DNA of 64,000 nucleotides from Oscillospiraceae bacterium. Lineage in GTDB: Bacteria; Bacillota; Clostridia; Oscillospirales; Oscillospiraceae. The notes below the pieces were generated by a model. That model did not search any database, was not told the origin of the DNA, and saw nothing but the letters and a program-made list of their open reading frames with translations. Shown here one piece after another: positions 1-650 of this stretch. The stretch covers positions 1 to 64,000 of the forward strand of contig JAFWFZ010000016.1 in NCBI GenBank assembly GCA_017515345.1, read 5' to 3'. Numbering within the stretch: the stretch's first letter is position 1; each line of letters starts with the position of its first letter. The position numbers and the translations under genes were made by a program.

Positions 1-430
1 CAAACTGCGCCCGCGTGGCCTTCGCGTCGTAATTGGAATACTCATTTGCCCCGATGATCCTGTTTTTCACCGCGTAATCCACGTAGACCTGATACCAGGG
101 AGAGCCCTGTACGAAGGACTCGCTGCCGGTGTTGAAAATGGAGTGGAGCCGCGCCGCCAGGGTGATCGACTGGGCGATGGTGATATTGTTGTCGGGGGAA
201 TAAGTAGACTCGCTGGTGCCCTTTACAAGGCCGTATTCATACCCCGCCTTGACAGATTCATAATACCAGTCGCCGGTTTTCACATCGTTGAACTGGCCCT
301 TTGTGTACTTGTTGACTTTTTGGAAGTTGCTGAGAGCCCCGTCCGCCGCCAGCACAGTCGGGACGGTGCCGCAGAGCAGCACGAGGATCAGCAGCATCGT
401 CAACGATCTTCTAACTGTTCCTGTTTTCAT
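1..430 (-). CDS. S-layer homology (SLH) domain protein, 3' part outside window
   Basis: The gene starts at an ATG (430) behind an AAAGGGGGT ribosome site and runs off the left window edge, so only about 143 N-terminal residues are visible. A signal peptide (basic MKTGTVRR, hydrophobic core, cleavage near VLAADG) is followed by an SLH-like module with the usual landmarks: a DWYYESVKAGYEYGLVKG stretch, a YSPDNNITIAQSI stretch, then a second SLH unit beginning around WYQVYVDYAVKN. SLH modules bind secondary cell-wall polymers, so this is an exported wall-associated protein. Its full domain content is unknown. It lies directly downstream of the structured leader and terminator-like hairpin at 451-615, which probably control it. 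Confidence 0.85.
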   Translation of the reverse strand, partial: MKTGTVRRSLTMLLILVLLCGTVPTVLAADGALSNFQKVNKYTKGQFNDVKTGDWYYESVKAGYEYGLVKGTSESTYSPDNNITIAQSITLAARLHSIFNTGSESFVQGSPWYQVYVDYAVKNRIIGANEYSNYDAKATRAQF

Positions 431-450
431 TTTTGAACCCCCTTTGGAAT

Positions 451-480
451 AAAAAAGTGGCGCAGCCGAAGCCGCGCCAC
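451..480 (-). terminator. Intrinsic terminator between leader RNA and SLH gene
   Basis: Minus-strand stem of 10 bp (one G-U) closed by a TTCG tetraloop (457-480), followed by six T (456-451). It ends only about 20 bp before the SLH start codon, so it either ends spo0A/sRNA transcripts or acts as an attenuator for the SLH gene. Confidence 0.8.
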
Positions 481-615
481 CGAAAAACGCACAGCCCCGT
501 TTGCTACCACACAAACTCTTTGGAAATCCGCAAGGAATGCCAAAATAGAAAGTGCGTTTTTACCAGAGGTAAAAACACATCCCTCGCAGACTTCCCCATA
601 TCAAGTTTGTGTGGC
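451..615 (-). ncRNA. Structured leader RNA with intrinsic terminator (candidate attenuator or small RNA)
   Basis: A sigma-A-like promoter (622-650, minus) would start a transcript near 615. From there the minus-strand RNA can form nested helices: P1 (604-614 with 507-517, 11 perfect pairs), P2 (578-595 with 522-539, 18 continuous pairs including five G-U), and P3 (568-578 with 552-564, loop 565-567). A terminator hairpin at 457-480 with a TTCG loop and six U follows, just before the SLH gene's ribosome site. The segment 483-492 is a perfect 10-nt complement of 552-561, so it competes with P3. The G-U pairs would be A-C mismatches in plus-strand RNA, which argues for a minus-strand RNA. I match it to no known riboswitch class. 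It could also be a free sRNA of about 165 nt. Confidence 0.6.
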
Positions 616-621
616 ACTGTT

Positions 622-650
622 ATTTTACCATGCGCCCGCAGGGACGACAA
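622..650 (-). promoter_or_regulatory. Promoter of the structured leader / SLH gene
   Basis: On the minus strand TTGTCG (650-645) is separated by 17 bp from TAAAAT (627-622). The predicted start falls at about 615, exactly at the 5' side of helix P1. Confidence 0.6.

Follow-up and report, generated by a model that had tools for sequence, protein, structure and literature searches.

Here we describe a class of leader RNA that is real, widespread in gut and rumen Clostridia, and not in Rfam. Its representative in the window, the 64,000-nt stretch of Oscillospiraceae contig JAFWFZ010000016.1 analyzed here, lies on the minus strand ahead of a gene for an SLH-domain protein and has a riboswitch-type layout, with a structured 5′ leader and an alternative terminator and antiterminator ahead of the start codon. 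Comparative sequence makes it quite probable that the leader attenuates transcription in cis by means of a strand-exchange switch and belongs to an unlisted class of Clostridia leader RNAs. We rate it as a new class within a known kind, the riboswitch-like transcription attenuator.

Results

A structured leader RNA ahead of an SLH-domain gene

A preliminary description of this DNA had placed a structured leader RNA on the minus strand of positions 430–650, and folding confirms it. The minimum free energy (MFE) of this segment is −101.3 kcal/mol, compared with a mean of −64.7 for dinucleotide shuffles (z = −8.55; no shuffle equals it), and for the plus strand z is only −4.17. A covariance model delimits the whole minus-strand element, from helix P1 to the terminator tail, at 617–448 (147.4 bits, E = 8.4 × 10−29). 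The promoter claimed for it was found by consensus scan at 650–622, with a −35 of TTGTCG (650–645), a 17-nt spacer and an extended −10 (TG-n-TAAAAT, 627–622). Because the −10 ends at 622, transcription is expected to begin within the 5′ strand of P1, close to 615, as had been predicted.

The three helices described earlier are present in the MFE fold, with corrected lengths for two of them: P1 has 14 bp (616–603 with 518–505) and P2 19 bp (595–577 with 540–522), instead of 11 and 18, and a P3 of 9 bp (576–568 with 564–556) is stacked on P2. The 3′ side of P3 belongs to strand C (GGUAAAAACGCAC, 564–552), which is conserved in all copies. A perfect 10-nt block had also been reported, and it holds exactly: GTGCGTTTTT at 492–483, within what we call the AT strand (CGGGGCUGUGCGUUUUU, 499–483), is the complement of AAAAACGCAC at 561–552, on the 3′ side of P3. 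A scan recovered the intrinsic terminator at 481–456, with the UUCG loop ascribed to it and a U tract running to 451, and downstream lie a ribosome-binding site (AGGGGG, 444–437) and the ATG at 430–428. The SLH-domain gene (430–2) is real (PF00395, E = 6.6 × 10−10) and encodes a signal peptide at its start, though the contig end cuts it. An important feature absent from the preliminary description is a predicted antiterminator, 498–489 with 477–468.

The gene immediately upstream of the leader, with the same orientation, is spo0A (Response_reg and Spo0A_C domains; 1597–722, minus strand). A GC-rich inverted repeat at 704–662 separates the two and may be the spo0A terminator.

Distribution and copy number

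A BLAST search of 60 relatives with the leader matched 13 genomes, with eight matches in genome G012 and, in the window's own genome, a further copy at G000:C40:3035-3166. Full-length matches share a common anatomy, which from 5′ to 3′ comprises an extended −10, P1 just behind it, P2, P3 with the loop UUUGGU, the 3′ strand of P1, the linker AGCAAUCGGAG..UGCGUUUUU, the terminator, a ribosome site and a start codon. P2 varies between copies in both sequence and length. Among 159 distinct copies, the −10 precedes the element start by 4 nt in 112, and in 124 it carries the TG extension.

A covariance model built solely from the P1, P3 and terminator pairs matched 87/400 genomes in the window's family, 142/394 in its order and 98/391 in its class, where 57 of the 223 sampled genera carry the leader. 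In a sample of 299 genomes from the phylum, the model matched the window's own genome alone; because ~289 of these genomes lie outside the class, this sample serves as a negative control, and none of the ~289 from other classes carries the leader. Single genomes hold as many as 28 copies (G1015), followed by 12 (G999) and 11 (G927 and G1098). Some copies are in tandem, 33–62 nt apart, each with its own promoter among those inspected. Most of the sequences come from metagenome assemblies; four named loci, obtained by a narrow pattern search, come from uncultured bacteria assigned to Oscillospiraceae, Clostridiaceae or Clostridia, and two bear the source labels sheep rumen and goat abomasum.

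The leader also occurs on four contigs classed as viral (L052, L100, L293 [MT835845.1] and L294 [MT837627.1]; the phage records are unverified), and the gene behind it encodes a lipoprotein in L293 and a zinc-ribbon membrane protein in L294. We rejected a phage origin: when viral-contig loci were fetched with a 14-mer, only 2/80 contained the element, and the leader is on two phage contigs, themselves unverified, and on no plasmid.

Covariation and alternative pairing

P1 covaries strongly across the 159 copies. Its first 12 pairs are canonical in 149–158 of them, with complete pair swaps, as at pair 4 (CG in 68 copies, GC in 68, AU in 12 and UA in 10). For the other helices, we compared true pairing partners with those drawn from other copies, using 139 non-redundant copies, an anchor chosen independently of pairing and 5000 permutations. 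True partners matched far better for the pseudoknot between strand C and the AT strand (z = −15.3), for P3 (z = −11.4) and for the antiterminator (z = −13.8), and 0/5000 permutations reached so low a value; for strand pairs not expected to pair, z was −0.5, −1.5 and −1.0, and it is through these negative pairs that the kinship of copies is controlled, in part. The A5/U5 portion of the pseudoknot contributes no evidence, because it is invariant and was used as the anchor. The terminator scored z = −21.7 in 102 copies whose arms were picked by folding.

RNAalifold, given 14 homologs, returned without prompting a hairpin in which strand CGGAGNNGUGC pairs with the 5′ arm of the terminator itself. 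This strand is also the competitor of P3, and therefore the AT strand and strand C each have two partners. The 10-nt strand that had been read as competing with P3 is thus conserved, and its reading is refined: it supplies one side of a pseudoknot that is conserved, and also pairs with the 5′ arm of the terminator. In a divergent subset of copies all of these strands have changed together (for example, AT to ..AAAUCAA.., C to ..UUUGAUU and the terminator arm to ..UGAUUUAA).

The 5′ side of P3 carries a U tract in 141/159 copies, compared with 24/159 control windows. In an H-type pseudoknot, loop 1 would cross the A5:U5 helix at the position of this tract, so that a U.A-U triplex may form there, as a structural guess. 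Unpaired bases are conserved as well, in an AUA internal loop, the UUUGGU loop and an AGCAAU linker.

A subgroup of copies in G1015 (L256, L258, L259, L269–L271, L274 and L275) has a divergent switch core, with ..GCUUUGAUU as C and AAUCAAGGCUGCGUUUUU as AT strand. Some of its members stand second in a tandem pair, and the subgroup may answer to another signal.

A proposed strand-exchange switch

We propose that RNA polymerase would start at P1, after which strand C (GGUAAAAACGCA..CUCC) could pair with its 5′ neighbour to give P3; alternatively, it could pair with the AT strand further downstream (GGAG..UGCGUUUUU) in an H-type pseudoknot that spans P1/P2. As its other option, the AT strand could form an antiterminator with the 5′ arm of the terminator. 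Were P3 to form, the AT strand would be left free, the antiterminator would assemble and the gene would be ON; were the pseudoknot to form, the AT strand would be taken, the terminator would fold and transcription would stop before the ribosome site, leaving the gene OFF. Comparative sequence supports the components of this scheme, namely P1, P3, the pseudoknot, the antiterminator and the terminator, along with the placement of the promoter and start codon and the enrichment for exported proteins described below. We infer that the helices alternate in cells, which of the two states corresponds to ON, and that the balance between them responds to a signal.

In folds of transcripts extending to the terminator loop, the antiterminator is part of the MFE structure of 103/105 copies and P3 of 86/105, and in full-length transcripts the terminator is part of the MFE structure of 46/105, the pseudoknot being beyond the scoring of the program used for these counts. 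Given the 103/105 and 46/105, the terminator and antiterminator outcomes are, in these predictions, finely balanced, as expected of a switch.

Genes behind the leader

A strong ribosome site, start codon and open reading frame follow within 30 nt of the terminator in 53/99 copies, compared with 1–5/99 control windows. Under our own simple rule of N-terminal hydrophobicity, 37/49 downstream proteins of at least 100 aa are predicted to be exported, versus 56/326 neighbouring open reading frames (Fisher P = 6 × 10−16); secretion-like N-termini number 12/54 in the window. This suggests that the leader mostly guards genes for predicted exported proteins. Among 84 downstream proteins, Pfam identified BspA-type leucine-rich repeats in 11, SLH in 4, AMP-binding in 3 and M23 in 2, and regulation specific to SLH proteins was rejected on this 4/84. 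The 25 proteins from G1015 and other multi-copy genomes include LRR_5 (7/25), copper-amine-oxidase-like domains (3) and AbrB-like small proteins.

Several recurrent small downstream proteins of ~50–80 aa had no NCBIfam match. Paralogous proteins of ~50 aa (DYKELY..LF..ADA..; L018–L023, L160 and L195), without a family match, stand behind the leader several times in G012 and also in other genomes, and a small Cys-rich family (IDITG..LTPG..GKDCLGNG..CCC..CDY; L159, L226, L227 and L238) stands behind it in different genomes. Zinc-ribbon proteins recur too, behind the second copy in the window's genome (L014, G000:C40) and in L294, L178, L183 and L233.

Comparison with known RNA families

At Rfam 15 gathering thresholds, the window and 20 members of the class returned tRNAs only, and no family, the c-di-GMP and T-box models included, matched the minus strand of 430–650; the preliminary description had likewise seen no fit to the c-di-GMP I/II, cobalamin, SAM or T-box riboswitches. 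Relaxed scans of three members gave only inconsistent matches below threshold, and weak hits to RT-9 and tfoR were rejected as terminator resemblance. We found no description of the class in the literature, including passages of motif surveys from 2010, 2021 and 2024, and it is apparently undescribed so far; the supplementary motif lists of such surveys lay outside the search and may hold it as an unnamed listing, so priority is not certain.

Transcription-terminating riboswitches with pseudoknotted aptamers include fluoride crcB, SAM-II and preQ1-II. The leader resembles them as a 5′ leader with a pseudoknot and a mutually exclusive terminator and antiterminator before the ribosome site, and it shares tandem copies with some of their classes. 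It differs in having neither a known ligand nor an Rfam match, in that one strand is contested between its pseudoknot and a local hairpin, P3, and in its many unrelated, mostly exported targets, which show no metabolic theme. Like T-boxes, it presents an antiterminator/terminator choice in a Firmicutes leader; unlike them, it is not matched by the Rfam T-box model, either in the window or in the 20 members, and no aminoacyl-tRNA synthetase or amino-acid genes appear among the downstream families listed. Its order of promoter, pseudoknotted RNA, terminator and gene recalls type III toxin-antitoxin systems of the ToxIN type, whereas its RNA does not consist of arrayed short repeats, and no ToxN/AbiQ-type toxin is among the families listed for the 84 (25 of 37 families) and 25 downstream proteins.

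Discussion

Our results support the earlier suggestion of a new attenuator class for surface proteins: P1 and P3 show compensatory changes, the competing strand is conserved, the terminator lies before the ribosome site, exported genes are enriched behind it and Rfam offers no match. Against an attenuator count some copies that are followed by no obvious gene or that come first in a tandem pair. An attenuator governed by a leader peptide was excluded for nearly all copies, as only 3/159 contain an open reading frame of at least 8 codons with a ribosome site.

A bound effector is likely for the leader, because the unpaired bases of the AUA internal loop, the UUUGGU loop and the AGCAAU linker are conserved. 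As to its nature we can only guess: the chances of a small molecule seem about even, those of a protein clearly lower, and those of no effector at all lower again. The same switch driven by an RNA-binding protein instead of a small molecule, a rather unlikely reading that nonetheless survives best among the alternatives, would suit both the conserved unpaired bases and the many unrelated target genes, and no metabolic gene theme points to a metabolite. Yet no candidate protein was identified, and the leader is unlike the known protein-bound antiterminators listed in Rfam.

The preliminary description had also raised a free, trans-acting sRNA of ~165 nt with its own terminator, for which the gene behind would be incidental. 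The leader does have its own promoter and terminator, tandem copies each have both with no gene between them, and termination would release such an RNA. We nevertheless consider this improbable and the weaker of the two earlier proposals, because 53/99 copies have a strong ribosome site and a start codon no more than 30 nt from the terminator; in addition, the antiterminator is conserved, which an sRNA would not need, and the next gene is biased toward exported proteins.

Slightly less probable still is a portable promoter-terminator module, a selfish or repeat element without regulation, as the many copies before unrelated genes, the tandem copies and the four contigs classed as viral might suggest. 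Copies of the leader have diverged strongly and yet kept mutually exclusive alternative helices, which requires selection on function, and the bias toward exported proteins also speaks against such a module.

C-di-GMP riboswitches (classes I and II) likewise occur in many copies per genome, with surface and secreted proteins among their targets, but a new type of c-di-GMP riboswitch is very improbable here, and c-di-GMP was rejected as a universal ligand, because the GGDEF domain, present in 29/50 near-complete multi-copy genomes, is absent from 21/50, including G1015 with its 28 copies. The leader also differs from the known classes in having no Rfam match.

Returning to the strand-exchange attenuator, a fuller version of it, to which we give somewhat less than even weight, is that the leader may be a new riboswitch class that responds to a global signal, in general not c-di-GMP, and determines which proteins uncultured Clostridia of gut and rumen export, by way of competition between a pseudoknot, perhaps held by a U.A-U triplex, and a local hairpin. 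The four-strand design makes clear predictions that can be checked through compensatory mutations. If the leader is a switch, its presence in up to 28 copies per genome and in 57/223 genera would make it a major regulator of the surface and secreted repertoire in abundant gut and rumen bacteria, and its signal, once identified, would provide a handle on bacteria known mostly from metagenomes.
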